Assembly: GCA_002701965.1 (NCBI GenBank)
Contig: NZXM01000037.1
Location: forward strand, 1-12,339
DNA: 12,339 nucleotides
Source of the DNA: Methanobacteriota archaeon
Lineage (GTDB): Archaea; Thermoplasmatota; Poseidoniia; Poseidoniales; Thalassarchaeaceae
Reading direction: 5' to 3'
Part shown: positions 2 through 12,188 of the stretch, piece by piece
Layout: every line of letters begins with the position of its first letter
How positions within the stretch are numbered: the stretch's first letter is position 1
Program-made: the position numbers and the translations under genes
The notes under the pieces: generated by a model
Told to the model about the DNA's origin: nothing
The model's database searches: none
What the model saw: the letters and a program-made list of their open reading frames with translations, nothing else

Positions 2-511
2 GAAAACCCACTACGATTTGAAAAGAAAGGCATGGATTTGGCAGCCTCTCGGGCTCGAGATGTCGAGGCAAAGGTGATGCTGCCAGAGGAAGTTGTCACC
101 CATCGCGATAAGTTGGACTTCGCCGCAAGTCGGGCGCGTACTGTCGAACCAGGTGTCCATTACGATACAGGACCAAACATGCGTGTCATTGGCATGGGGG
201 CTGCAAGTCGTGCTGCAGCCGGCGGTGATGTATCGGAAGAAACTCCTCCACTAACTTCGAATCAGGCGGTTCGGGAAGCCAGTAGCCGTGCTCAAAGGAC
301 TCAACACTTGACAGGACGTTTGGCGGATGTCGAAAAAGCCCATATTCGTGCCATGTCAACAGCATTTACCGGGAGTGGAAACACACAAGTCACCGTTTGG
401 GAACGACTTCGCAAACTGGAATCAAATGGTGTTGAAATCCAAGCCATTGTGGACCAATTTGAAATTGATCCTGATGGTGCTTTAGAAGCGCTAGAGGAGG
501 CAGAAAAATGA
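2..511 (+). CDS. Repeat-containing hypothetical protein, probably 5'-partial
   Basis: I do not recognise this protein. The frame is open from the first complete codon of the window. An ATG at 32 could be the start, but it has no well-spaced SD site. The residues before it also resemble the residues before the second repeat, with the Met at a hydrophobic repeat position, so I think the gene begins outside the window. Numbered from that ATG, AASRAR lies at residues 4-9 and 31-36, AASRAA at 57-62 and ASSRAQ at 83-88: a 26-27 residue period. The C-terminal 45 residues look helical and acidic (WERLRKLESNG, then ALEALEEAEK). The protein looks soluble, with no signal peptide or membrane segment. Its TGA overlaps the ATG of the next gene (ATGA), implying translational coupling to the DnaA-like ATPase, so it may be that protein's partner, scaffold or adaptor (inference). 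Confidence 0.75.
   Translation, partial: ENPLRFEKKGMDLAASRARDVEAKVMLPEEVVTHRDKLDFAASRARTVEPGVHYDTGPNMRVIGMGAASRAAAGGDVSEETPPLTSNQAVREASSRAQRTQHLTGRLADVEKAHIRAMSTAFTGSGNTQVTVWERLRKLESNGVEIQAIVDQFEIDPDGALEALEEAEK
41..295 (+). repeat. Four degenerate ~78-81 bp coding repeats ([A/S]ASRA motif)
   Basis: The motif copies are encoded at 41-58, 122-139, 200-217 and 278-295, so the spacings are 81, 78 and 78 bp. The protein motif is kept while the bases have diverged (for example gcagcctctcgggct against gccgcaagtcgggcg). This points to old in-frame tandem duplication kept by selection on the protein. The first two copies share more flanking sequence (D-[LF]-AASRAR-x-VE) than the last two. More copies may lie upstream of the window. 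Confidence 0.65.
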
Positions 512-2370
512 GCACATTCCGGACGCCACTTCGTGAAGCAATGGAGCGTAGTAGGAGATTTTTGGGAGATTCTAAGCAACCCGAAGAGGGGCCCAAAGGT
601 GAGAGTACCTTACTGGATCACGTCTCGATTCGTGCGCGTATTCGTGCCGAGGCTCGATTTGCCAAGCGATATGATCTACCTGTTGGTGCACCATCTCCTC
701 TGGAACGGCTCTCGATTCTGAGTGGTGATGACTCTGGTTATGGAGAAATGGTCCAATCACGATTAGAAGCCATGCGGGGTAAGATTCTCCAGGGAAGCCC
801 ACTCAATCTCGAAGGTGAATCGTCACGAATCCCAACCGACGTTCCCCGCTGGGTAGCAGGTGAAGGTGACATTGTTTCAAATGATCCAGTGGTCCCGATT
901 TGGAGGGAAGTACTCGAGGAACACCGTGGCTTGAATCCATCCGAACCCCTCAGTGAAACAGACTTGGGCTCACCTCAGATCATCGATTCCGGTCCCGCTC
1001 CCGTATCACGAGATCACGCAGGGCATTGGCCTCCCTATCTACCAAAGCGTTCAGGATTGGACTTTGGGTCATGGCAACAAGGTGCCTCAAACAGAATTGC
1101 AACACAAGCTGCTAGTGAAGTCATCGATTATCCAGCACGTCGCCTGAACCCATTGCTAATCCATGGTACAGCAGGTACAGGAAAGAGCCATCTTCTCTGG
1201 GCGATTGGAGAATCTCTGCACAATGGAATTCCTGATCGTGATGTAAGGCTAATCACCGCAGAAACATTCCCTGAGCACCTGCCAGATGGTTGGGATGATT
1301 TACTGTTGTACGCAAGTACGCTCCTCATCGATGATGCAGATCGTATTTTGATGCGCCCTTCAGGCCCAGCAAACTTGGCCGATGTCATCGGGTGGTCGAT
1401 TGACATTGGCGCGCAAGTGATTCTAACATCCTCACGTCGCTTGGCTGCAGATTCATTACCGATGGGTCGCCTTCGTCAGGCTGTTTCGTCGGGTGTCCAT
1501 GTCGAACTTGGGTCGCCTTCTGAGGGGACGATGCTGTTACTACTCAGGCGCAACACCTTGTCACGTGGGGTATCTTTGACAGACCCTCAGTTACAGGTTA
1601 TTGTTAGCCGAAGTCGCGGTCAATGGAGCCGTGCAAAAGCCGATTTTGAAACCGTTTGTTTGGCACTGGAGTCTGGTGCTTTGCTGGTCGGTGCAGTCGA
1701 TGTCCGAGAGTTGCTCTCTGGTGAAGCGCCAACGATTGTTGAGGCATCTGAAGAAAGCAGTATCGATGTAGAAACCAAGGGTGCGCAAATCGTTGCCGAT
1801 GTCCTTGATTCGGTCCTTCCTGAGTCGGTAGATAATCGGGCAGAAATCGTCAGTGAGCGAGTTCAATTATCCGATGACTATGTTCCTCCTGAACTTCATT
1901 TGCCTACATCTTCTGAGGCAATCAATTCTCTGGCATCAGATTCACTTCGAGGTCATCTAAAGGACATTGCGAATCGCGGTAAAAGAGCGAACATCACCCC
2001 GCAAATACCCGTTGGAAACAACATCGATGCACTGACCGATTCTGCTTTGGATAACCTGGAGAAAATTATCCATGAGCACAGATTCGAGTTGAGAGAACTC
2101 AATCGTGAAATCCACCACATTTCTAGAAAGGTTGATACTGCATCCTCAGATGAATTGGTCTCATTTACAGATCGGATGTTGGCCATTGAAAATCATCTCG
2201 ATAAGTTGCAGGAACTCGGCTCGGGCGAATATGCTCCAGAGATTGAGAATTTCAACCCAAGCGACCTACTTGAACCACGCAAACATCCAGTGCTTGTTCC
2301 AGAAAAAGTTGAACCCGGGAAAGCGATTCTTTGGCCACTTAAGCGTCGTGTTTTGTTGCCAGTTGAATGA
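508..2370 (+). CDS. DnaA/Hda-like AAA+ ATPase with long N-terminal extension and coiled-coil-like tail
   Basis: Residues ~183-400 read as a DnaA domain III. There is an entry motif LDFGSWQQGASNRIA (184-198), then NPLLIHGTAGTGKSHLL with Walker A at 220-227, Walker B LLIDDAD at 272-278 and sensor-1 ILTSSR at 305-310. GRLR at 320-323 matches the DnaA DRL(R/K) segment, and a sensor-2-like SRAKADFE lies at 374-381. By eye, the DnaA box VII arginine finger aligns with Ala325, while the preceding Arg (R321) is kept. Residues 1-180 are charged and Pro/Gly-rich, probably flexible. Residues 405-505 are acidic, 506-571 look like an alpha-helical coiled coil, and a basic tail follows. DnaA domain IV (the DnaA-box-binding helix-turn-helix) is not visible. 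The start has a clear SD, GGAGG at 496-500, 7 nt upstream. The protein should bind ATP and possibly oligomerise. A role as replication initiator, regulator or polymer-forming ATPase is unknown. Confidence 0.85.
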   Translation: MSTFRTPLREAMERSRRFLGDSKQPEEGPKGESTLLDHVSIRARIRAEARFAKRYDLPVGAPSPLERLSILSGDDSGYGEMVQSRLEAMRGKILQGSPLNLEGESSRIPTDVPRWVAGEGDIVSNDPVVPIWREVLEEHRGLNPSEPLSETDLGSPQIIDSGPAPVSRDHAGHWPPYLPKRSGLDFGSWQQGASNRIATQAASEVIDYPARRLNPLLIHGTAGTGKSHLLWAIGESLHNGIPDRDVRLITAETFPEHLPDGWDDLLLYASTLLIDDADRILMRPSGPANLADVIGWSIDIGAQVILTSSRRLAADSLPMGRLRQAVSSGVHVELGSPSEGTMLLLLRRNTLSRGVSLTDPQLQVIVSRSRGQWSRAKADFETVCLALESGALLVGAVDVRELLSGEAPTIVEASEESSIDVETKGAQIVADVLDSVLPESVDNRAEIVSERVQLSDDYVPPELHLPTSSEAINSLASDSLRGHLKDIANRGKRANITPQIPVGNNIDALTDSALDNLEKIIHEHRFELRELNREIHHISRKVDTASSDELVSFTDRMLAIENHLDKLQELGSGEYAPEIENFNPSDLLEPRKHPVLVPEKVEPGKAILWPLKRRVLLPVE

Positions 2371-2371
2371 C

Positions 2372-2827
2372 TTACCAAGTCCTGAATCCTTTCTCAGCAA
2401 CCCGGTCTTTCTCTAGGTGACCCTGAATAACAGGTAACGAAATTGCATCCGCCTCCGGTTGTCGTAAACCTGGACACAATTGTACGGTTTTGTGCCAAGA
2501 TCTGTTTGAAACCATATTCTCATTCCACCATGGGAAAGCAGAACACTGGTCTGGTTTGGCTTTGTAGACACTACAGGATTTGTCATCATTCAGGTAAATA
2601 CAGATGCCATCTTGCTCCCTTGAACGTAGGACATAGCGGCCGTTTTGGCTTCGAGTGCAATCCCGATCTAGCCAATCTTGAACCTCCATTTCGTGGTGTT
2701 TAGCCAACCGTTCAGCATCATGCCTGGCCAAGAAAACAACCCCTCCTGGTTGATCACAACATTTCCCACAATCGGGCTGACATTCAAACCGGACACCCTC
2801 GGAATACCAAGGTCCACGAGCGCCCAT
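2372..2827 (-). CDS. YkgJ-family cysteine-cluster (metal-binding) protein
   Basis: From the chosen ATG this is 151 residues. It carries the YkgJ signature: FECQPDCGKCC near residues 14-24 (Cys16, 20, 23, 24), then the GGVVFLARHDAERLAKH segment. A second cluster follows, with Cys at 76, 85 and 95 in a GICIYLNDDKSCSVYKAKPDQCSAFPWW-like stretch, and a late Cys118. The family is thought to bind zinc or an iron-sulfur cluster and its biochemical role is poorly known. It looks cytosolic, with no signal or membrane segment. The frame could begin at a TTG at 2878, but the added 17 residues are not family-like. The ATG at 2827 fits a TATA-like element near 2890. It is divergent from citrate synthase and ends 1 bp from the DnaA-like gene (convergent). 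The YkgJ assignment is firm and the start less so. Confidence 0.85.
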   Translation of the reverse strand: MGARGPWYSEGVRFECQPDCGKCCDQPGGVVFLARHDAERLAKHHEMEVQDWLDRDCTRSQNGRYVLRSREQDGICIYLNDDKSCSVYKAKPDQCSAFPWWNENMVSNRSWHKTVQLCPGLRQPEADAISLPVIQGHLEKDRVAEKGFRTW

Positions 2828-2886
2828 AGTTCTGCGACATTCGCTTTGGTTTTGAGATTCTGGGTGTAATACCCCCAACCCTTGCC

Positions 2887-2927: not shown

Positions 2928-4106
2928 ATGAGCGACGAAAATGGTAAGGAAGTACTCTTTGAAGTCACCAAGGACCATCTCGACACCGGACTTCGTGGGA
3001 TTCCAGTCGGTACCTGTCGAACTTCGTTTGTCGACCCGAAGAAGGGTGTGCACTATTGTGGCTATCCCGTGGGTGACCTTGCCGAGATGAGTCCTGAAGA
3101 TGTCATCTTCCTACTCTTTGAGAAGCGACTCCCCAACCGTCAAGAATCCCAGGACTTCCGACATGAATTGGTTCAACGAGCTGAACGCCTACCGACGGGT
3201 GCACTGCGGGTATTGGAATCTCTAACTCCTGGATCAGGGCACCCCATGGATTGGTTGAGTATCGGAATTCAGTCTCTTGGTGTTGCTGAGACCACTGGAG
3301 ATATCCGAGCTGATGGCCTGAATCTTATTTCACGGATGCCAGAACTGATGGCGACCATTTTCTGTCTACGAGGTGGCCGTGGACTCCCTGAAGTAGCCAG
3401 CGAGCCTCAGCGCGGTATGGTGGAGAATTTTGTTCACTTGTTGGGTCTAGAAGGTACAGATGCAGATCGTATGATTCGAACATTACGCGTATTCCTCGTG
3501 CTTCACATGGACCATGGTGGAGGTAACCTTTCCACATTCACAGGGAAGGCCGTTGCCAGTGGGTGGGCCAGTCTATACGCTTCGATTTCCAGTGCCATGA
3601 ATGCGCTATCAGGTCCACTCCATGGTCGTGCAAATCAGTCTTGCCTGGAATTCGTCCAGCGGATTGGGACCTCTGATGAGGCTGAAGTTGAATCCTTTGT
3701 CCGAAAGGAACTGGCTGCAGGTCGCCCCATCTACGGATTTGGCCACGCAGTACTCCGTGCAGAAGATCCTCGTGCAGCAGCACAATTCAAGCTCGGTGAG
3801 GAAATTTGCCCCGATGATCCAAACTTCAAGACGGTCAAGGCGCTACGAGTTGCTGCACCCAAGGTTCTGGGTGAGAATCCGAAAATTAGCAATCCGAATG
3901 CCAACGTGGATATCGCTTCAGGTACACTACTGAATGCGGTCGGCTTCCACAAGCCTGAGTACTATACGACTTTCTTCGGATGGGCTAGAGTTGCAGGAAT
4001 TGCTGCTCAGATTCTCGATGAGCGAAATGCTCGTGGTGGACGAGGGACTCCGATTTACCGACCCAAGTACTACGCTGCGGATTCAACCATCCGTCGCCTT
4101 GAGTAA
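2928..4106 (+). CDS. gltA: Citrate synthase (mitochondrial-like active-site motifs)
   Basis: It should condense oxaloacetate with acetyl-CoA to citrate, the entry step of the TCA cycle, in the cytosol. At 392 residues it is a typical archaeal length. Visible active-site elements are LHMDHGGGN (192-200), GPLHGRANQ with the catalytic His at 232, GFGHAVLRAEDPR with His273 and Arg282, NANVD with the catalytic Asp at 328, Arg354 in the GWARVAG helix, and Arg378 in YRPK. GPLHGxANQ, GHAVLRxxDPR and YYTxxFGxxR are wordings I associate with mitochondrial-type enzymes. Common bacterial and archaeal forms instead read GPLHGGAN and GHRVY. 2-Methylcitrate synthase activity cannot be excluded, but no other prp gene is nearby. 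The ATG has an SD, GAGGAG at 2917-2922, 5 nt upstream. The stop directly abuts the stop of the convergent GDPD-like gene, with no spacer. Confidence 0.93.
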   Translation: MSDENGKEVLFEVTKDHLDTGLRGIPVGTCRTSFVDPKKGVHYCGYPVGDLAEMSPEDVIFLLFEKRLPNRQESQDFRHELVQRAERLPTGALRVLESLTPGSGHPMDWLSIGIQSLGVAETTGDIRADGLNLISRMPELMATIFCLRGGRGLPEVASEPQRGMVENFVHLLGLEGTDADRMIRTLRVFLVLHMDHGGGNLSTFTGKAVASGWASLYASISSAMNALSGPLHGRANQSCLEFVQRIGTSDEAEVESFVRKELAAGRPIYGFGHAVLRAEDPRAAAQFKLGEEICPDDPNFKTVKALRVAAPKVLGENPKISNPNANVDIASGTLLNAVGFHKPEYYTTFFGWARVAGIAAQILDERNARGGRGTPIYRPKYYAADSTIRRLE

Positions 4107-5273
4107 TCACTGGAAGTCTTTGCCACTTCCTCGGTGTCCGATCATTCGACTGACTTCCCAAGGCATGGTCTTTGGACTTGCGTCCCGGGATAATTCATCC
4201 AATTCTCGTTCCCAGCCCCATTTTTTTCTCCATGATGCGAGGAAACCCTTGCGTTCAATATCTGTTAATTCATGCCAAGGTGTAACTTCACGCGTCGCTT
4301 CTTCAATCAGTGCGGCATGATCCGCAGGGTCAGCATTCTGCAATAGGGCCTGACGCTCTACATCCAGAGGTTGACTGGCCCAGCGCATCCATCTCGCTCC
4401 ACCTGTTGGCAGTGTCACCAATTCAGGTGAAGTATAGTCCGTCAATCCCGTCAGCCCCATTTCTCGTAAAGAATTCTCAACTTCGATTGACATGGGCCAT
4501 ACATACGCTTGGTATCCTTTTCTTAATCGATTTAGACGCCGCCCGGTATATCCCGAAAGCCCGAAGGTTCTGCCCAGGGTGATGTGACGAGTTGCCCCGT
4601 GCAAATACTCCAATGCGCATGGCAACATGGGTGCACCCACCAATCTCTGATGTTTCAGATGAAATGCCAATGATAACCACATGAAGGAAGGTAGGGTAAG
4701 TATTCGCTTGACACGTCGGTTTCCAACTTCTGGTGTTGCAGGTTGTAATTGAGCAACAGGCCAATTCACGCTCGCGCGCGCGCACACGTGACGGAATCTG
4801 CGTTTGAAGGAGTAGATGACAACATTCTGTTGTTGTAAATCCATTTCATTCAACATTTCATTCGCCAATCCAGTAATAATTCTAGCATGTTTTTCTCGTT
4901 TCTTTGGATTAACTGAGCCAGCAATTGCCGATCTTGGATGGGGCATCTTCAATTCAACACAAGCGACTTTGCCGTGCTCGCGCCAAGCATTGGTATAGAC
5001 GTCATCTTCAAGCAAGGTTTGGAATAGTGGAATGTTCAGTTCTGCCAATTCGTCGGAGGAATAATCCTCGACCCACTTTGAACCACCCAATTGTTCGATT
5101 TGTGTTGGGGAGAGAAAGTTGTCATGGAAAAGGACCAACTGTCCATCAGTGGTCAATCGGAGGTCGAACTCCACACCATCGGTATGAACCATACCGTGAC
5201 GTATTGCTTCGATTGAATTCTCAATCGGCTTGACCCAGCCCTTGGTCATTGATTGGTGCTGGATGTTCCCCAT
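4107..5273 (-). CDS. Glycerophosphodiester phosphodiesterase-like protein, possibly altered active site
   Basis: The GDPD family hydrolyses glycerophosphodiesters to glycerol-3-phosphate and an alcohol. From the ATG at 5273 the protein has 388 residues, longer than the usual ~240-300. GDPD elements in order: PIENS (16-20), VEFDLRLTTDG with Glu35/Asp37, FHD with His50, VELK with Glu107/Lys109, VIYSF, VWPMS, and LTDYTSP at the barrel end. The N-terminal catalytic HRG is not intact: the expected place reads IQHQSM, keeping His6 but not Arg. An extra segment (~190-250) is partly hydrophobic. About 85 residues follow the barrel, and the last twelve, MIGHRGSGKDFQ, look like a GDPD N-terminus. There is no signal peptide. 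The start is uncertain: in-frame starts at 5294, 5330 and 5345 have no convincing SD, and the last two would run into the divergent transporter gene. It may hydrolyse another phosphodiester or have reduced activity. Confidence 0.8.
   Translation of the reverse strand: MGNIQHQSMTKGWVKPIENSIEAIRHGMVHTDGVEFDLRLTTDGQLVLFHDNFLSPTQIEQLGGSKWVEDYSSDELAELNIPLFQTLLEDDVYTNAWREHGKVACVELKMPHPRSAIAGSVNPKKREKHARIITGLANEMLNEMDLQQQNVVIYSFKRRFRHVCARASVNWPVAQLQPATPEVGNRRVKRILTLPSFMWLSLAFHLKHQRLVGAPMLPCALEYLHGATRHITLGRTFGLSGYTGRRLNRLRKGYQAYVWPMSIEVENSLREMGLTGLTDYTSPELVTLPTGGARWMRWASQPLDVERQALLQNADPADHAALIEEATREVTPWHELTDIERKGFLASWRKKWGWERELDELSRDASPKTMPWEVSRMIGHRGSGKDFQ
4773..4790. repeat. 18-bp alternating purine-pyrimidine tract
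   Basis: A CG-rich stretch alternates pyrimidine and purine for 18 bases (five CG steps, then CACACGTG). Such tracts can adopt Z-DNA under negative supercoiling. It lies inside the GDPD-like coding region, encoding an HVCARA segment, and stands out against the moderate base composition around it. It may be a chance result of alanine and arginine codons. Confidence 0.45.
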
Positions 5274-5328
5274 ATTCAAGCGTCGCCCCTGCATCAAGCC
5301 TAAACACCGTCTAGCATAGTTTGTACAC

Positions 5329-7101
5329 ATGACTGAGGCTGACAAGAAAGCTGTTCGCGGTTACTGCATGTACGATTGGGGCAAATCAGCATTTGAAACC
5401 AGCGTAACGACGGCAATTCTACCTCCATGGTTTCTCTATCTCTTCTTGGAAGCAAATGGACTGACAACGACCATTGCTGGAATCGAAATGTCGGGTACGG
5501 CCATTTGGTCATATTCTGTTGGTATTGCCACCCTTATTGTGGCAATGCTCAGTCCTTCATTTGGCGTCATTGCAGATCGAAGAATGATCAAAATGTGGTG
5601 GCTCAGAATTCTAACCTATCTGGGTGCAGGAGCTACATTCCTACTGGCACTTGCTGGAACTGGATTGATTCCAATCAGTATGAAGTGGGCCTGGTTGATG
5701 ATTATGTTCGTCATGGCCAATATCGGATTGAATGGTGCAGGGGTATTCTACAATGCACTATTACCTCACCTTGGCGATGATACCCAAATGGATGACATTT
5801 CCAACCGAGCCTTTGCATACGGTTACTTCGGAGGTGGAATTCTACTATTGGTACATCTTGCAATGTTTCTTTCTTTGACCGGTGACTGGGTCATTCCTTT
5901 CATTATGGCATCTTCAGGAATATGGTGGTTTGGTTTTTCGTTGCTTACGTTCAAGTGGGTCCCTGAACCTCACATCGAAGAAGAAATGGAACTGACGAGC
6001 TTTCTTGAATCTTCTAAATTCGCTCTATCTGAGGTTGCTACAACTCTGAAAAAGCGCAAAGATTTTCGCACCCTCTTTTTCTTCATGCTGGCATATTTCT
6101 TCTATATCGACGGAATCAACAGTGTGACAGCACTTGCTGGCGTATTCGGACCCGCAGTTTTGGGTTTGACAACGACAGATCTCATTCTAGCCATTCTCGC
6201 AATTCAATTTGTGGCAGCACCTTCAGCGATTGGTTTTACAAAAATTGCAGAGAAGTATTCGACCAAGTCAGCCCTCCAACTATCTCTGATCATTGCAACA
6301 TTAGTCGGTGTTTTGGCCCTGACATTCGCACCACTTACACCTGATTCGCATGACGGGTATGACATCCAATATACTTGGGATGAAGAAACTGAAACCTATC
6401 ACGCCGTGGTTCTCTCCACCTTGGGTGAATTGGCTCAGGATCCAGACAATGAAGAACAGGAATGGGCGATAGAATTCAGAGATATTCTCCCTGTTCAAGT
6501 GAATGATAAAGTCGACGAGGCCGAAGTCCTAGAATGGGCCAAAGACAGTGATGGTCAACCCCTATCTGTTGATGTTGGTAATGCCTCCTTAGATGCTCTA
6601 AAGGCAAAGATTGCAGATTCCAGATTTAGCATGAGCATCAAAAGCGGTGATGATGTAGATTCCCTTGCTGGAATCGATCACCCCACCAATCTAGGTGATG
6701 GGCCATTGGACTTTATCGCAGAGACTGCCAGAGATCTAGTTTGGCAGCCATTGGGGATATCTGTAACAATTCAATTCATGATGCTTGGAGTCATGTTTGG
6801 TTCCATTATGGGTGGTTGCCAAGGTCTTTCAAGAAGCCTGTTTGGTCAAATGATTCCAGAATCACGTAGTGCTGAATTCTTCGGCTTCTTCGGCTTCTTT
6901 GGCAAGGTTGCAGCATTCATCGGACCGATTCTGTACGGAACTTTGGCCATCATCTTTGACGACCGAGTTGCCATTATGAGTATTTTCTTACTCATCTTGA
7001 CGGGCACTATCATGATGAGGTGGGTGGACGTCGAAGATGGCATTGCCGTGGCCAAGGCTGAAGACGAACGTAATCGGGGCCTCACTTCTGCTGAGGAATG
7101 A
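5329..7101 (+). CDS. UMF1-family (MFS) transporter with large acidic loop domain
   Basis: This 590-residue membrane protein has the layout of the UMF1 / Atg22-like branch of the major facilitator superfamily. It opens with YDWGKSAFETSV (15-26), followed by YNALLPHL (141-148), an SNRAFAYGYFGGG segment (158-170), AYFFYIDGINSV (255-266), and GGCQGLSRSLFGQMIPESR with FFGFFGFFGKVA (495-528). I count about 12 membrane helices: six in residues 17-210, three in 246-334, three in 477-565. Between helices 9 and 10 lies a ~140-residue insertion (336-475), rich in Asp/Glu and without hydrophobic segments. With the N-terminus inside, it would face outward. The substrate is unknown; known relatives export amino acids or sugars. 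No SD precedes the ATG, so the transcript may be leaderless. The last 20 bp overlap the 3' end of convergent tatC. Confidence 0.88.
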   Translation: MTEADKKAVRGYCMYDWGKSAFETSVTTAILPPWFLYLFLEANGLTTTIAGIEMSGTAIWSYSVGIATLIVAMLSPSFGVIADRRMIKMWWLRILTYLGAGATFLLALAGTGLIPISMKWAWLMIMFVMANIGLNGAGVFYNALLPHLGDDTQMDDISNRAFAYGYFGGGILLLVHLAMFLSLTGDWVIPFIMASSGIWWFGFSLLTFKWVPEPHIEEEMELTSFLESSKFALSEVATTLKKRKDFRTLFFFMLAYFFYIDGINSVTALAGVFGPAVLGLTTTDLILAILAIQFVAAPSAIGFTKIAEKYSTKSALQLSLIIATLVGVLALTFAPLTPDSHDGYDIQYTWDEETETYHAVVLSTLGELAQDPDNEEQEWAIEFRDILPVQVNDKVDEAEVLEWAKDSDGQPLSVDVGNASLDALKAKIADSRFSMSIKSGDDVDSLAGIDHPTNLGDGPLDFIAETARDLVWQPLGISVTIQFMMLGVMFGSIMGGCQGLSRSLFGQMIPESRSAEFFGFFGFFGKVAAFIGPILYGTLAIIFDDRVAIMSIFLLILTGTIMMRWVDVEDGIAVAKAEDERNRGLTSAEE

Positions 7102-7843
7102 TTCGATCAATCAGCAAGGCGATTTCAAACAACACAATCATCGGTGCTGCGATGAGTGCCAATGACAGTGGGTCTGGTGGAGACAACATGGCGCCAACAA
7201 CAATGCTGGCAAACCACAAATGTCTTCGATAATAAGTCAGGAAACTTCGTTCTACCAAACCACCCTTGAGTGTAATCAAAACCACCAAGGGAACTTGGAA
7301 TGCGAGGGCACTTCCGAGTGCCAATGAAATGAGGAATCCAATCCATGCTTGCAAATGCCAGGTTGATTGTAAACCCACAGCTGTTGCATCTTCATGCAAA
7401 TATTCCAGCAAAAATGGAATCAGAATTTCCCATGCATAAAGCAACCCTGCAAGCGCCAAAGTCAATGATTTCGCCAGTGCCCACAATCCTTTGCCAACAG
7501 AACCGATTTCAAATCCGATGTCCAGGTTCTTTCCATGTCTGGCAGCATCCCAGACCAATGACATCACGACCAACATGATTCCAATATAACCCGCGATTTG
7601 TAGCCTTAGCAATACCAATTCTAAGGGCTGTAGTACGACAATTTCTGTCCCATCCGGGATCAGGCTGGATTGATTGATAATCCAATCAATCCCCTCGCCT
7701 GCAATCGGATATCCGAGAACAAAACCAAACAGAAACAAAACGGCAAGCCCACGAACACGAGTTCGAAGATGTTCTCCCAATTTACGGAACATTCGCATTC
7801 GAGGCGCATTCATAAGTTCCTCAAATTCCAATCCTTCAGCCAT
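7082..7843 (-). CDS. tatC: Sec-independent protein translocase TatC, divergent
   Basis: TatC is the twin-arginine signal receptor of the Tat pathway, which exports folded proteins. The 253 residues have about six hydrophobic segments (roughly 30-48, 72-98, 120-147, 165-190, 208-220, 226-246). The best signature is at the end: SIVVGAMLSPPDPLSLALIAAP, then FEIALLI. This matches the TatC (T/S)PPDxxSxxLLAxP...(Y/F)E motif. FQVP at 182-185 replaces the usual FEVP, so a conserved Glu is Gln. The N-terminal HLxELRxR motif reads KLGEHLRTR, which fits only with a one-residue insertion. The first cytoplasmic loop lacks the usual FxxPgLyxxE wording. Hence it is a clear but unusual TatC, possibly one of several paralogues. 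GAGGAG at 7857-7852 lies 8 nt before the ATG. It follows the upstream acidic membrane gene by 16 bp, so both are probably one transcript. No tatA is in the window. Confidence 0.9.
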   Translation of the reverse strand: MAEGLEFEELMNAPRMRMFRKLGEHLRTRVRGLAVLFLFGFVLGYPIAGEGIDWIINQSSLIPDGTEIVVLQPLELVLLRLQIAGYIGIMLVVMSLVWDAARHGKNLDIGFEIGSVGKGLWALAKSLTLALAGLLYAWEILIPFLLEYLHEDATAVGLQSTWHLQAWIGFLISLALGSALAFQVPLVVLITLKGGLVERSFLTYYRRHLWFASIVVGAMLSPPDPLSLALIAAPMIVLFEIALLIDRIIPQQK

Positions 7844-7859
7844 GTGGATGTCTCCTCAA

Positions 7860-9191
7860 TCAAGGCAACTCAGGAATAAATGGGGTTTTTCTTCGTGGTG
7901 TGGCTTGTTCCTGAATTTCGGTTTGAGCAGGCTCTATGGGCACATCTTGTTGAGTCCAAGCTGGAGCAGCAGTTTCAGGCTCCGGCTCAGTTGCAACCTG
8001 CACAGGTCGGCCCATGAGTGTCCATACTCCTTGTTCTGGATCCCATTCTGCCATACTGGGGAGTTCTGCAGGTCTGACTGGCATCACTGCAGTAGTGGAT
8101 TTCTTGCGAACTTTTTCGACGACTTTTTCCTTGAAACCAGCAACCATTGTCGCCACCCCTTTCGCACCTGTCATTGTAGTGCTAACCACGTCTTTGGTGA
8201 CATTCAGCGTTGTATCTGCTGCTTGAGTGGCCATTGAAGAAATCCGCTCAGTCACATTTGGCTTTGCTTCCTCAAGGGAAATAATCTCGGGAATCTCAGG
8301 CAGAGAAGGAGTGAGCAAGGGGTCTTCTTCTTCTAGAGTGTCTTCAGATGACAAAGGTTCACGGAAGAGTTCTGGTATCTCAGGCAGTTCGCGTTCGATC
8401 CCATCCGAAACAGTTTCACCAATCTGCTCAGTTTCAAGCACAGGTTCAGGCACAGGTTCAGGTTCAGGTACAGGCTCAGGTACAGGCTCAGGGTCCCATA
8501 CGCCCCAGCCGATGTCATCTTCGTCATCGTCTTCGACTTCATCATCGTCTTCGACATCTACAGCCTCATGATTTTCATTCTCAATGTACGCCTCAACCAT
8601 CTCTGTGGTTTCATCGTCAGGAACCGTTGTGGTAAACCGACTGTCTATGAGGGGCACTTCTGCGTCAGTTTCCTTTTCTTCTTCAGCTTCTTCTTCAGCA
8701 TTCGCAGCAGCAATTGCACCCATTTCTCCAAGCGCAGCTGATACAAGATTTTCATCGAGTGATTCAGTCACACCAATCACGGACTCAACAATTGCTTGAG
8801 TATGGGCATCTCCACCCATTGAAGGAAGGGATCCGCCCCCTCCGAACTCAAGTAATTCACGTTCTTCGAGTCCATCATTTTTCTCGATGGCTCCGAATTC
8901 AGGTCTCCGTCGAAGGCAATAGATTGCACCCAAGGTTGAGGGCAATGCAATTGCAAATAGTAACCACTCTTGCGAGGTCATCGCACCAGCTTCCGACCAA
9001 ACAGGATCGGGTGAACCTCCGAAAAATCGATCTTTAAAAAATAACCAGAAATGGAATTTTTGTCCAACACCACCATCGGCAAAGAGGACTGCAGGGAAAA
9101 AGCCCAACATTCCGTTGATTAGAAAGATGACCCAAGTGGGCAATGCCAGAATTAAGCACCACAGTCCAGCTCTGGGATGATACCGCTCCAT
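7860..9191 (-). CDS. Two-helix membrane protein with acidic, Pro-Glu repeat and 11-mer repeat regions
   Basis: I do not recognise the family. From the ATG at 9191 it has 443 residues. Two hydrophobic helices (about 8-32 and 74-93) bracket a ~40-residue loop, so the long remainder would be on the N-terminal side of the membrane, probably cytoplasmic. The tail is low-complexity and very acidic (166-174 and 212-226), then PEPV repeats (234-251), a possible 11-mer amphipathic repeat (320-363) and a basic patch (VRKKS). A small ordered-looking EWDPEQGVWTLMGRPVQ (382-398) precedes a Pro-rich end (PFIPELP). The frame runs back to 9329 into the drg 3' end, but that part is not protein-like and the hydrophobic N-terminus fits this ATG. 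GGAGGT sits 14 nt upstream, farther than usual. It lies between drg and tatC on one strand, so a link with the Tat machinery or envelope is possible but unproven. Confidence 0.8.
   Translation of the reverse strand: MERYHPRAGLWCLILALPTWVIFLINGMLGFFPAVLFADGGVGQKFHFWLFFKDRFFGGSPDPVWSEAGAMTSQEWLLFAIALPSTLGAIYCLRRRPEFGAIEKNDGLEERELLEFGGGGSLPSMGGDAHTQAIVESVIGVTESLDENLVSAALGEMGAIAAANAEEEAEEEKETDAEVPLIDSRFTTTVPDDETTEMVEAYIENENHEAVDVEDDDEVEDDDEDDIGWGVWDPEPVPEPVPEPEPVPEPVLETEQIGETVSDGIERELPEIPELFREPLSSEDTLEEEDPLLTPSLPEIPEIISLEEAKPNVTERISSMATQAADTTLNVTKDVVSTTMTGAKGVATMVAGFKEKVVEKVRKKSTTAVMPVRPAELPSMAEWDPEQGVWTLMGRPVQVATEPEPETAAPAWTQQDVPIEPAQTEIQEQATPRRKTPFIPELP
8103..8234 (-). repeat. Four possible 11-residue amphipathic repeats
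   Basis: Protein residues 320-363 split into four 11-mers: MATQAADTTLN, VTKDVVSTTMT, GAKGVATMVAG and FKEKVVEKVRK. Positions 5 and 6 are always Ala or Val, and position 1 is hydrophobic or Gly. This periodicity resembles the membrane- or surface-binding 11-mer helices of LEA, perilipin and synuclein-type proteins. It is a by-eye reading of a short stretch. Confidence 0.4.
8439..8492 (-). repeat. Short tandem repeat encoding Pro-Glu-Pro-Val
   Basis: On the + strand the run reads as reiterated caggttcagg / caggctcagg units. On the coding strand it encodes about four to five PEPV units, residues 234-251 of the acidic membrane protein. The near-identical codons suggest recent slippage, so copy number may vary between strains. 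Such Pro-Glu runs tend to form extended, stiff spacers. Confidence 0.8.
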
Positions 9192-9259
9192 GATGTCACC
9201 GGGGAACCTCCGATAGCGCTCGCACCTATCAACATCTCCTTCGGAGATGAACCCCTGTA

Positions 9260-10375
9260 TCAGCGTTTGATGATAATCGAAAGTAAATCTCCATCTTTGA
9301 GATGGTGAGCCAATCCGACGCGCTGCCAATCAAATTTCGCAGAGGGGCCCTTCACCCTTGCAAATCTGAATTTACGAACGAAATCTCGATGCAATGTATT
9401 GCAGACATCTTCTACAGTCGAGGTATCTTTGACAATCAATGGCTCGACCAAATCAGCTTCTTGACCCTGAGGTTTGAGGTAGATCGACATGAATCCCAAA
9501 TTGTCGTAAAGGAAATCCTTCATCTTCTCAATTCCCATGCCTGTAAATGCAGAGATTGGCATGACTGGCCACCCATCAGGAAGCATATCAGTCGTCCGTG
9601 TAAGGTCCTCCTGACTTGCAATATCCATCTTGTTTACAACGACCACTGCCTTGGAGTAGACGCGGTTGGCAGCCATGGTATCGACAATGTGATCTGCGTT
9701 CACATCAATGCGCATTGTGACGTGTGCGCTGACCATGCCGAATGAGCGAACAATATCTTGAATCTCTTCATCAGCAAGGTTGGTTTGTTCACAGGTTGAA
9801 CGCACGACAATCCCACCCCTGTCAGTTCGTTTGACAAATACGGGTGGCTTGTCTTCATTCAACCTCATTCCACTAATCTCCAATTCTCGGTTCAAGACAT
9901 TGAAGTGTGATTCTTGGAATGGGTCCACAACATAGAGTACCATGTCACAGGATCGAATTACACCAAGAATTTCCTTTCCTCTCCCCTTTCCTTCCGCAGC
10001 ACCTGGGATCAAACCGGGCAAATCCAAAATCTGAATTTTGGCACCTCGGTGCTCCATTAGTCCAGGGATGCAGGTCAGCGTGGTGAAGGCATATGCACCC
10101 GTTTCAGAATCTTGGCCCGTTAATTGGGCGATAAGCGTTGATTTTCCAACAGATGGGAATCCGACCAATGCGACGGATGCATCTCCAGATTTCTTGACTT
10201 CGAAGCCAGAGGCGGGGCCGCTACTCTTGGAATGAGCCTCTTGAGACTCAATCTTGCGTTTCAACGCAGCGATTTTGGCCTTGAGCTTTCCAATGTGGTG
10301 CATGGTTGCTTTGTTCTTCTGAGTTTTGTCAATCTCTGCTTGAATTTCCGCGATTTGCTCCTTGATTGTCGCCAC
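9260..10375 (-). CDS. drg: Drg-family GTPase (OBG superfamily) with TGS domain
   Basis: Drg proteins are ribosome-associated GTPases of archaea and eukaryotes; in eukaryotes they act with Dfrp partners in translation. All G motifs are visible in the 371 residues: G1 GFPSVGKST (72-80), G2 threonines at 98-99, G3 DLPG (118-121), G4 NKMD (248-251) and G5 SAF (274-276). A basic helical N-terminus (1-50) precedes the G domain. An insert after G3 (~170-240) matches the S5D2L region of Drg. The C-terminal ~75 residues (295-371) are a TGS domain ending GDLLSIIIKR. Length and order are normal for the family. The GTG start is supported by a strong SD. It leads a minus-strand cluster with the acidic membrane protein 68 bp downstream and tatC after that, and is divergent from the 248-residue gene across a spacer with an inverted repeat. 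Confidence 0.95.
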   Translation of the reverse strand: MATIKEQIAEIQAEIDKTQKNKATMHHIGKLKAKIAALKRKIESQEAHSKSSGPASGFEVKKSGDASVALVGFPSVGKSTLIAQLTGQDSETGAYAFTTLTCIPGLMEHRGAKIQILDLPGLIPGAAEGKGRGKEILGVIRSCDMVLYVVDPFQESHFNVLNRELEISGMRLNEDKPPVFVKRTDRGGIVVRSTCEQTNLADEEIQDIVRSFGMVSAHVTMRIDVNADHIVDTMAANRVYSKAVVVVNKMDIASQEDLTRTTDMLPDGWPVMPISAFTGMGIEKMKDFLYDNLGFMSIYLKPQGQEADLVEPLIVKDTSTVEDVCNTLHRDFVRKFRFARVKGPSAKFDWQRVGLAHHLKDGDLLSIIIKR

Positions 10376-10378
10376 AAC

Positions 10379-10388
10379 ATCACCCCCC
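10379..10388 (-). promoter_or_regulatory. Shine-Dalgarno site fixing the GTG start of drg
   Basis: On the minus strand this reads GGGGGGTGAT, one mismatch from the full anti-SD complement GGAGGTGAT. It ends 3 nt before the GTG at 10375, leaving the usual distance between the SD core and the start codon. It supports the GTG over the nearby ATG at 10380, which is out of frame. Confidence 0.7.
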
Positions 10389-10397
10389 GGCTGGCTC

Positions 10398-10418
10398 GCC
10401 CGACCCTATGGGTCGGGC
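10398..10418. promoter_or_regulatory. Perfect 9-bp inverted repeat in divergent spacer
   Basis: GCCCGACCC, then TAT, then GGGTCGGGC form a perfect 21-bp palindrome apart from the central base. It lies 22 bp before the drg GTG and 32 bp before the ATG of the 248-residue gene. It is much more GC-rich than its surroundings. It could be an operator for a dimeric regulator acting on both genes, or an RNA hairpin in the drg leader just upstream of its SD. There is no T-run, so an intrinsic terminator is unlikely. Confidence 0.5.
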
Positions 10419-10450
10419 ACGGGTTCTTCAATCCGATGTGCTAAATCGAC

Positions 10451-11197
10451 ATGGCGAGCATTGATGGATGGGTTGCGCAAGGGAATGGTATGGCCTCGGT
10501 AGACCTGGTCGCCCGTTTGGTCGATATTGCCGTTTTCCGCGGCCTTTGTTCGATTCCAGGGGATCAATTGGCACTCGCCCTGTCAAAGGGTGAATTACGA
10601 GATAAACGACCTGATCAAATCTCTTCATTAGATCGAGCATTCGACATTGATGCGGAAGCAGAATTTCTAGATTGGTACGACGAACAACCTGTAGATTGGA
10701 CTCCTGCAGGCTTTCTTCATGACCTTTCACAAATACCACTTGAGGATGCAGCAAACGGCCTTCGTCTCCTTTCAGATTTGGCGAGTCCCGGTTCATTTCG
10801 ATGCTGGGAAGGTCGGGCAATGTTGTATCTGGATGTCTTATTGAGTCGTAAAATATCTGACATTGATGATTTGTATTCCGATTCAACTTGGGTTGATGCC
10901 AAAGCCGCAGTATCCTCATCTCAACCCGACGAATATGCTGAATCAGTGGTGGTGTCATGGATGGCACAGCGTGAAGACATGGGTGAAACATTAGATCCAA
11001 ACAAGGATGCTAGAATCCTACCCACGATGGAATCTCACCAGACGTCTGCAGATATGTTACATCGGACCTTGCAAACCGCATTGTTGCCAGAGTTGTTCTT
11101 GATGGTTGGACGCGATTGGACTGAAGCAAGCGCATGGGGGCAAGGAAATTGGAATTTACAGAAGCTGCTTGAAAGCGGTCTTCCGGAGGGATCCTAG
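10451..11197 (+). CDS. Hypothetical protein (248 aa) upstream of NMN adenylyltransferase
   Basis: I do not recognise this protein. It is acidic, predicted soluble and looks mostly alpha-helical, with many Leu, Asp and Trp residues (FLDWYDEQPVDWTPAGFLHDL around 72-92; GQGNWNLQKLL near the end). No Walker, zinc-finger or catalytic motif stands out, and there is no signal peptide or membrane segment. An in-frame TAA at 10442-10444 rules out a longer 5' end. ATG 10451 has no SD. ATG 10490 (residue 14) has a weak AAGGGA 5 nt upstream and is a real alternative, giving 235 residues. Its TAG shares one base with the GTG of the next gene (TAGTG), so the two should be translated together. A link to NAD metabolism is a guess from position only. 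Confidence 0.75.
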   Translation: MASIDGWVAQGNGMASVDLVARLVDIAVFRGLCSIPGDQLALALSKGELRDKRPDQISSLDRAFDIDAEAEFLDWYDEQPVDWTPAGFLHDLSQIPLEDAANGLRLLSDLASPGSFRCWEGRAMLYLDVLLSRKISDIDDLYSDSTWVDAKAAVSSSQPDEYAESVVVSWMAQREDMGETLDPNKDARILPTMESHQTSADMLHRTLQTALLPELFLMVGRDWTEASAWGQGNWNLQKLLESGLPEGS

Positions 11198-11742
11198 TGA
11201 AACCCTCACTGATTGTTTTGGGTCGATTCCAACCGTTCCACAACGGACACGCTTCGATGGTCGAAGCCGCCCTAGAACAGGGTGTGCCATTGCGCATTTG
11301 CATCGGTTCCTCTGAGGCTGAACAATCTCTGGAAAATCCATGGAGTGCATCTGAACGCGAGCAAATGATTCGTGCATGGTTGGAGGGAAGGGATGCCGAA
11401 ATCGTCCATGTTCCTGACTTAGGGGATCCTCCAAATTACGTCAAACATGCTGAGGAATTTCACGGACCATCGGGGACGCTTTTCACGACAGATTTTGAGA
11501 CTTCAAAACTCTATAGAGAGGCAGGTTGGGGTGTAATTCTCCATGATCTTGAAAACCGCGAAGATTGGCAAGGTTGGCGAATCCGAGCCACACTACAAAT
11601 GCTGTCTACAGTCCTGGAAGAAGAGGCTGTGATTGCCGCGCTAAGTGTCAATGTCCCTGCTGCAGTAGCTCAACTAATCGTGGACAATGGATGGCAACGT
11701 CGTTTGTTCCACATGGGCACGGGTGGGGAGCCAGTCGGTTAA
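11197..11742 (+). CDS. nadM: Nicotinamide-nucleotide adenylyltransferase, archaeal type
   Basis: It should transfer AMP from ATP to nicotinamide (or nicotinate) mononucleotide, the last or next-to-last step to NAD, in the cytosol. The 181 residues fit the archaeal NadM family. They open with a Rossmann strand and the GRFQPFHNGH nucleotidyltransferase motif (9-18), then IGSSEAEQSLENPWSASER (36-54) with the ENP(F/W)(S/T)AxER motif. NREDWQGWRIRATL (120-133) occupies the place of the second motif, usually NRxxYSGTxIR. The basic Arg at 130 is kept but the SGT core reads QGW. The C-terminus (PAAVAQLIVDNGWQRRL) matches the family's final helix. The start is GTG with SD GGAGG at 11185-11189, 7 nt upstream, inside the preceding gene. 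The TAA stop overlaps the TAA of the convergent DUF1499 gene within a TTAA. Confidence 0.92.
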   Translation: MKPSLIVLGRFQPFHNGHASMVEAALEQGVPLRICIGSSEAEQSLENPWSASEREQMIRAWLEGRDAEIVHVPDLGDPPNYVKHAEEFHGPSGTLFTTDFETSKLYREAGWGVILHDLENREDWQGWRIRATLQMLSTVLEEEAVIAALSVNVPAAVAQLIVDNGWQRRLFHMGTGGEPVG

Positions 11743-12188
11743 CACTCACTTGTCTCAAATGGCGTCTCAATCAAGTGCTCTACAAGTTGATCGATACGTT
11801 CCTGATTTACACCCATGTCGCCCCACCCCAATCGTGATTCAGAATGAATTTGAATCCAAGTTCCATTTTCAGTACATCCTGTTTCGACAAAAAAGTCGTC
11901 GGGGAACATGAACCATCTGGAGTGGAATACTGTGTGTGAACTGGTTGCATCTTCCGATTCGATGGAGACTCCAGATTGTGTAGATATCCAGTCCATAGCT
12001 GCCGATTGAAGTGCTTCGGGTGATGTATTTACAGACATCATCAAGCGCTCACAGTTGTTGCTATTTTCGGGACATTCAGAAGGAATTTCAGAAGTATCTG
12101 GTGCCATAAAAGCCCCTAGGATTTGTATGGTGAATAGGCACACAATCCAAATTGCAGGTGGAATCAAGATCCACCGTCGGGATTCCAC
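11739..12188 (-). CDS. DUF1499-family protein with N-terminal membrane anchor
   Basis: This is a 149-residue protein with one hydrophobic N-terminal helix (about 6-29), either a signal anchor or an uncleaved signal. No lipobox cysteine follows directly. The body matches DUF1499: a CPENSNNC segment (39-46) in place of the family's CPxxPNC, then SRWFMFPDDFFVE (90-102), and HSESRLGWGDMGVNQERIDQL (115-135), which parallels the family's RSxSRxGxxDxGxNrxRi motif. Function is unknown in the family. The domain probably faces outside. The start is GTG with SD AAGGAG at 12201-12196, which lies inside the end of grpE. The 4-bp gap to grpE suggests they share a transcript. The 3' end overlaps the nadM stop. 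Confidence 0.85.
   Translation of the reverse strand: MESRRWILIPPAIWIVCLFTIQILGAFMAPDTSEIPSECPENSNNCERLMMSVNTSPEALQSAAMDWISTQSGVSIESEDATSSHTVFHSRWFMFPDDFFVETGCTENGTWIQIHSESRLGWGDMGVNQERIDQLVEHLIETPFETSEC

Follow-up and report, generated by a model that had tools for sequence, protein, structure and literature searches.

Why does an archaeal chromosome carry a gene for an ATPase of the DnaA type? DnaA is the bacterial initiator of replication, and archaea use Orc1/Cdc6, as described in excerpts of two papers (PMC3984812, PMC11880632). The question is raised by the first 12,339 of the 16,494 bases of contig NZXM01000037.1 (hereafter the window), which belongs to a 1.39 Mb genome that is 78% complete. 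A first-pass annotation had described the open reading frame at positions 508..2370 of the plus strand, here called gene 2, as a DnaA-clade ATPase lacking the DNA-binding domain and reused for another task, such as regulating initiation, organizing DNA or driving assembly of a coupled partner. We propose that gene 2 encodes the AAA+ half of a split archaeal DnaA-DUF835 signaling or scaffold ATPase, which, judged from sequence comparison, is the best overall explanation, with a probability of roughly 0.65.

The 620-residue product of gene 2 was identified by open reading frame calling, Pfam, NCBIfam, a search of solved structures, and comparison with orthologues. The motifs GASNRIA, NPLLIHGTAGTGKSHLL, LLIDDAD, and ILTSSR follow one another as in DnaA, in keeping with the earlier description. 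The DnaA-type AAA+ domain spans residues 186-369 (1063..1614, plus strand, as are all features of gene 2); residues 186-329 matched Pfam PF00308 (Bac_DnaA) with 59.1 bits against a cut-off of 23 (E 7.8e-16), and residues 185-369 matched NCBIfam DnaA TIGR00362 with 72.2 bits, below the curated whole-protein cut-off of 343.9. The scores against NCBIfam Hda (TIGR03420; 32.5 bits, below the cut-off of 194.8) and IstB (16.3 bits) were lower. A phmmer search of solved structures with gene 2 returned five distinct sequences, all of them DnaA (best 2z4r, E 4.1e-10), and a profile of 12 orthologues likewise found DnaA only. When an AAA+ profile was built from Poseidoniales proteins, it gave E. coli DnaA 105.5 bits, DnaC 26.2, and Hda 22.5, and three Orc1/Cdc6 proteins scored 1.5, 0.9, and -0.8. 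Thus, among DnaA, Hda, IstB, DnaC, and Cdc6, the comparison that had been suggested at first pass, DnaA ranked highest, and neither Cdc6 nor IstB was closer.

Gene 2 resembles domain III of bacterial DnaA (PF00308/TIGR00362) in fold family, motif order, and Walker A and B. It differs from bacterial DnaA in having no domain IV that was found, no arginine finger, a shorter initiator-specific stretch, and a DUF835 partner, and it is 23% identical to the E. coli protein. A domain IV family was absent from the Pfam and NCBIfam matches of gene 2 listed at E 0.1 or better, and from those listed for the relatives scanned (for L128, among the best 25 of 30 families). The N-terminal extension, put earlier at about 180 residues, measures 185, and the acidic tail of about 220 residues is 216 residues long (405-620) with an isoelectric point of 4.8. 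Within this tail, residues 510-570 (2035..2217) form a helical-looking segment conserved in alignments. Both extensions gave P of at most 1.3 against the remaining profiles tested. On these comparisons, the product is a DnaA-family AAA+ protein that is neither DnaA nor Hda nor Orc1/Cdc6. Orthologues are up to 83% identical over the full length, and the ratio of nonsynonymous to synonymous substitution rates (dN/dS) against the nearest one was 0.03, a value that is only indicative because dS is saturated. Gene 2 is a real gene still under constraint. One orthologue (G003:C130:8744-10603) carries a single internal TGA.

The host is an archaeon of the Candidatus Thalassarchaeum type (Poseidoniales). 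Named records holding relatives with 67-83% identity were filed under Thalassarchaeaceae, Ca. Thalassarchaeum, Ca. Poseidoniales, Marine Group II, or plain Euryarchaeota; all are archaeal, as had been supposed, and no sign of a bacterial host was seen.

The partner gene, gene 1, lies directly upstream on the plus strand, and its stop overlaps the start of gene 2 in the sequence ATGA (508..511). The contig holds only the 3' end of gene 1 (2..511), coding for the C-terminal 169 residues, so its N-terminal and DUF835 domains are known from relatives only. These relatives are about 520-800 residues long, and a complete one (L031:4001-6004) carries DUF835 (PF05763) with an E value of 3.9e-17. In 20/20 loci, a member of the gene 1 family immediately precedes gene 2 in the same orientation, 19 by the gene caller and one (L067) in which the caller had missed gene 2 and search coordinates were used to place it. 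The coupling to a partner gene noted at first pass is supported; two points are added here, namely that the partner belongs to the DUF835 family and that many related archaea have both as one fused protein.

The fused proteins came from a phylum-wide search with PF00308, which found matches in 153/389 genomes. Outside the order, 38 genomes gave about 69-239 bits, the best Poseidoniales score being 68.8. From 33 of these genomes we read 37 DnaA-AAA+ proteins, leaving aside G351, G354, G360, G466, G527, and some second copies. DnaA AAA+ and DUF835 are joined in a single chain in 23 of the 37. The N-terminal domain of gene 1 was matched in 22, including 19 of the 23 fused proteins, and in these 19 the AAA+ domain sits between the N-terminal domain and DUF835. 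A Pfam scan of ten proteins found DUF835 in eight; the other two are those in which the profile test found none either. The AAA+ domain can be close to that of bacteria: in L119 it scored 293 bits against a DnaA chain (8bv3) and is 49% identical to E. coli DnaA. Domain IV of E. coli DnaA matched 0/37 of these proteins in a phmmer test run on this set, which recovered a bacterial DnaA (L121) at E 2.5e-38.

Profile comparison then tied the Poseidoniales pair to the fused chain at both ends. The gene 1 N-terminal domain, aligned from 14 Poseidoniales sequences, matched the fused N-terminal domain in hhalign with P 99.3 and E 3.5e-20 (control comparisons with four unrelated alignments gave P 0.1-0.2), and the gene 1 DUF835 matched the fused C-terminus with P 99.9 and E 4.9e-33. 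Gene 1 therefore unites the two domains that, in the fused protein, lie on either side of the AAA+ domain. Functional coupling of the gene 2 AAA+ protein to DUF835 is almost certain. The simplest account of these matches would be that a single fused protein was taken apart into gene 1 and gene 2. In a tree of AAA+ domains, the 19 Poseidoniales sequences formed one clade (100/99), and bacterial DnaA paired with L121 (87.9/99). The phylogeny with bacterial DnaA called for earlier thus supports the clade and not its deep placement, as the deep nodes lack resolution; for this reason the direction of the split is inferred, and both gain from bacteria and old inheritance are compatible with the tree.

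We examined the ATPase motifs in an alignment of the 19 Poseidoniales proteins and the 37 other archaeal proteins of the phylum. In the window protein, Walker A (GTAGTGKS, residues 220-227, 1165..1188) and Walker B (LLIDD, residues 272-276, 1321..1335) are intact, with Lys226, Asp275, and Asp276 in place, as had been stated; yet the Walker A lysine is replaced in 6/19 Poseidoniales proteins, by Arg in four and Cys in two, and kept in 13. All six g12 and two g13 genomes that were read lack it, as does one of three members of genus g15, a separate change by the proxy tree described below. The sensor I region (LTSSR, residues 306-310) lies at 1423..1437. In the box VII region (residues 319-332, 1462..1503), Ala325 (1480-1482) aligns with the arginine finger R285 of E. 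coli DnaA, so the reported loss of this residue holds, and it extends to the order: the finger is present in 0/19 Poseidoniales proteins versus 30/37 other archaeal proteins. The sensor II arginine is found in 8/19 versus 29/37; in the window protein this region (GQWSRAKAD, residues 371-379, 1618..1644) aligns Ser374 with E. coli R334, and Arg375 is adjacent. The initiator-specific stretch is 30-33 residues long in Poseidoniales, against about 39 in E. coli DnaA and in the majority of the other archaeal proteins. Because the Walker A lysine is kept in 37/37 of the other archaeal proteins and the finger in 30/37, the decay is special to Poseidoniales, and the best reading is that their AAA+ part has partly decayed.

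The distribution of the pair was followed in 59 genomes, the window's own and 58 relatives. Gene 2 was found in 43, comprising 22/23 genomes of family f2 and, in family f1, genera g1, g2, g4, and g7 only; a class-wide PF00308 search gave matches in 171/292 genomes. Three of the genomes without a match (G005, G022, and G052) also lack the neighboring citrate synthase gene, so these misses are probably assembly gaps. In the remaining 13, from seven genera and with assembly sizes of 1.3-1.5 Mb, the surrounding gene order is kept and the pair is missing. Genome-wide searches of the 13 found neither gene 2 nor a PF05763 match, and their loci matched none of the profiles for gene 2, the gene 1 N-terminal domain, DUF835, the adjacent membrane protein, and the CxxCxxCC protein. 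One of them (G026) had a PF00308 match at 8.1e-4 in the class-wide search. The negative genera formed one clade with support of 1.000 in a proxy tree of up to four neighboring proteins, and the module was probably ancestral to the order and lost once. Orc1/Cdc6 scored above the cut-off in 58/59 genomes, whether or not the genus has gene 2. The only genome to fall short is the window's own (G000, 78% complete), in which neither Orc1/Cdc6 over the cut-off nor an archaellin match was found. We therefore rejected gene 2 as a replacement for Orc1/Cdc6.

Unlike the homology of the AAA+, N-terminal, and DUF835 parts and the adjacency of the genes, which are observed, the function is one that we infer. 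The two-gene module, gene 1 with DUF835 and gene 2 with the DnaA-like domain, would be the rearranged counterpart of one archaeal protein with the order N-terminal domain, helical region, DnaA AAA+, and DUF835. The AAA+ domain would bind ATP and switch or assemble with the DUF835 protein, and the pair would relay a signal or maintain a scaffold rather than bind DNA at an origin. Because Poseidoniales lack the arginine finger, their capacity for hydrolysis in trans is probably reduced or gone, and in g12 and g13 nucleotide handling may have shifted further, down to a structural pseudo-ATPase. A role in replication is disfavored by the presence of Orc1/Cdc6 in 58/59 genomes, by the dispensability of the pair in one clade, and by the failure to find domain IV; a signaling or scaffold role is the more probable. 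The first-pass interpretation is in this way partly supported, since reuse for another task is borne out and a tie to initiation control or DNA organization found no support. A broader proposal, on which we would place even odds, is that the phylum holds a third branch of the DnaA family, with a near-bacterial AAA+ domain and DUF835 in the place of domain IV, acting as a signal-transduction switch and here and there forming the inner portion of a membrane receptor; in Poseidoniales the protein would have been split into an operon and its AAA+ part turned into a scaffold, in the extreme a pseudo-ATPase.

Three other explanations were weighed. An Hda-like regulator of replication initiation, with Orc1/Cdc6 or the clamp as its target, would have in common with gene 2 the DnaA-clade AAA+ domain and the lack of domain IV. 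Arg likewise takes the place of the Walker A lysine in E. coli Hda, and a g12 protein (L071) scored 43.2 bits against Hda and 39.6 against DnaA. Set against this are the far lower score of Hda with the Poseidoniales profile (22.5 versus 105.5 bits for E. coli DnaA) and the arginine finger, which E. coli Hda keeps and all 19 Poseidoniales proteins lack. Furthermore, a whole clade without gene 2 still keeps Orc1/Cdc6, and in a genome assembled as one contig (G036) some 307 kb separate gene 2 from the closest of the orc1 genes listed. The coupling to DUF835 would also go unexplained. The listed neighborhood of E. coli hda has no such partner. We regard this regulator as unlikely.

It is quite unlikely that gene 2 is an accessory of the archaellum, a type IV filament, for instance as a polar ATPase or one for assembly. 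The archaellin distribution fits only partly: family f2 has gene 2 in 22/23 genomes and archaellin-family proteins in 23/23, and genus g1 has them in 15/16 and 14/16 relatives, respectively, but gene 2 occurs without a PF01917 match in genera g2 and g4 (4/4 genomes), and g5 (2/2) and g6 (2/2, one match each) are PF01917-positive without gene 2. The link is weakened by these exceptions. A helicase-loader or recombination accessory doing DnaC-, IstB-, or RadB-like work is very unlikely. A Rad51-family gene lies next to the DnaA-AAA+ gene in L127 and L133, but this neighbor was seen in one lineage only, E. coli DnaC scored 26.2 bits with the profile that gave DnaA 105.5, and the membrane-anchored form of the family does not fit such work.

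That form comes from the split archaeal DnaA-DUF835 family's relatives elsewhere in the phylum, which vary in build. A very long type has zinc-ribbon-like end segments (L120, L130, L131, and L150, of which L130 was checked with Pfam), a short type has 390-475 residues (L128, L132, L134, L136, L145, and L151), and a third has a predicted membrane anchor (L148 and L149). In L148, one strand encodes in turn a protein with Fn3-like, predicted transmembrane, and DnaA AAA+ (215.6 bits) parts, a KaiC, and a HisKA_7TM-DUF835 protein; the transmembrane segment is predicted from simple hydropathy, as is the topology. This cluster speaks for a signaling role. In L143, there is a separate split pair, with the AAA+ gene followed by the DUF835 gene, which also favors the proposed module. 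KaiC genes were seen in 7 of 38 gene neighborhoods (one, that of L149, with internal stops) and a zinc-ribbon protein in 11/38.

Several observations weigh against a DnaA-DUF835 signaling or scaffold ATPase. The match of PF05763 to gene 1 is uneven, with none in G050 and scores below the cut-off in G037 and G056, and 14/37 of the proteins outside the order lack DUF835 in the chain. The membrane form is limited to one fetched family, in which the L149 KaiC is interrupted by stops, and a KaiC neighbor is weak evidence because KaiC genes number 6-27 per genome (15 genomes). A kinship of DUF835 with KaiC itself was not confirmed by hhalign (P 4.2, versus 0.2-0.3 for three controls); against an archaeal AAA+ set, DUF835 gave P 12.9. 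The Rad51-family neighbor would suit a role on DNA. Since the pair was lost in a single event on the proxy tree, its co-loss counts once, and Arg at the Walker A position is by itself no proof of a dead site, since E. coli Hda has it too.

Signaling is also favored by archaeal response regulators in which DUF835 is joined to receiver domains and tabulated as '(iKaiC)', according to the part of PMC5847659 drawn on here; we read the label as inactivated KaiC, and the word DnaA is absent from the main text of that paper. Gene 1 relatives and a second small gene carry the domain, and here it is joined to a DnaA-type AAA+ domain. The 'DnaA-like' AAA+ protein of SSV-type viruses (arCOG07960), as described in an excerpt of PMC4158269, has the name and the AAA+ class in common with gene 2, is virus-associated, and is likened here by description. 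We found no published description of an archaeal DnaA AAA+/DUF835 family in a search that mostly did not extend to subscription papers and preprints. If the proposal is true, the DnaA ATPase also has work to do outside replication, in a chromosomal family that the phylum sample shows in no fewer than 38 additional archaeal genomes (proteins read from 33), and DUF835 gains a partner and a testable function. For study, the module provides naturally occurring Walker A variants and, in a single clade, natural losses. A candidate role in anti-phage defense was rejected; PADLOC gave weak matches only, to the AAA+ part of L148 (Avs2, E 0.0065; DolB, E 0.00082).

Gene 1 itself had no related solved structure, the best match being unrelated at E 0.43. 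By eye, motifs of the A-A-S-R-A type are repeated in its C-terminal tail (window 32-511). The second DUF835 gene, about 300 codons long and located elsewhere, shows the broad distribution seen for gene 2, and the small DUF835 protein matched, with its C-terminal half, the helical region before the fused AAA+ domain (P 97, E 8.4e-11). By eye, this second gene (L084-L099, e.g., L088:9467-10387) adjoins a histidine ammonia-lyase-like gene and a gene for an acidic membrane protein with zinc-ribbon and EF-hand parts.

The pair is adjoined on the minus strand (2372..2878) by a gene for a CxxCxxCC (PF03692) protein, identified by Pfam and its relatives. Relatives were present in 17/20 positive loci and in none of the 13 negative loci, the search covering the loci and not the rest of those genomes. 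On the strand opposite to gene 1, and close to it, 16/20 loci (L066, L068-L073, and L075-L083) encode a protein of 200-300 residues with one or two hydrophobic segments, which had no Pfam match in the two that were scanned and was absent from the 13 negative loci.

Among the fused relatives, the second gene upstream of DnaA-DUF835 in L117, L118, and L122 resembles gyrB by eye, and in L140 (1875-4070) a fused gene is followed by two genes for Ras-like small GTPases, one of them checked with Pfam. The L121 locus (G134:C23), filed in a genome of the window's family, encodes a bacterial dnaA with domain IV beside dnaN-, recF-, and gyrB-like genes (by eye) and looks like a contaminating contig. The rest of the window (2928-12188) holds ordinary neighbors: genes for citrate synthase, GDPD, an Atg22-like major facilitator superfamily protein, TatC, and a TGS GTPase, and a nicotinamide mononucleotide adenylyltransferase-like gene.

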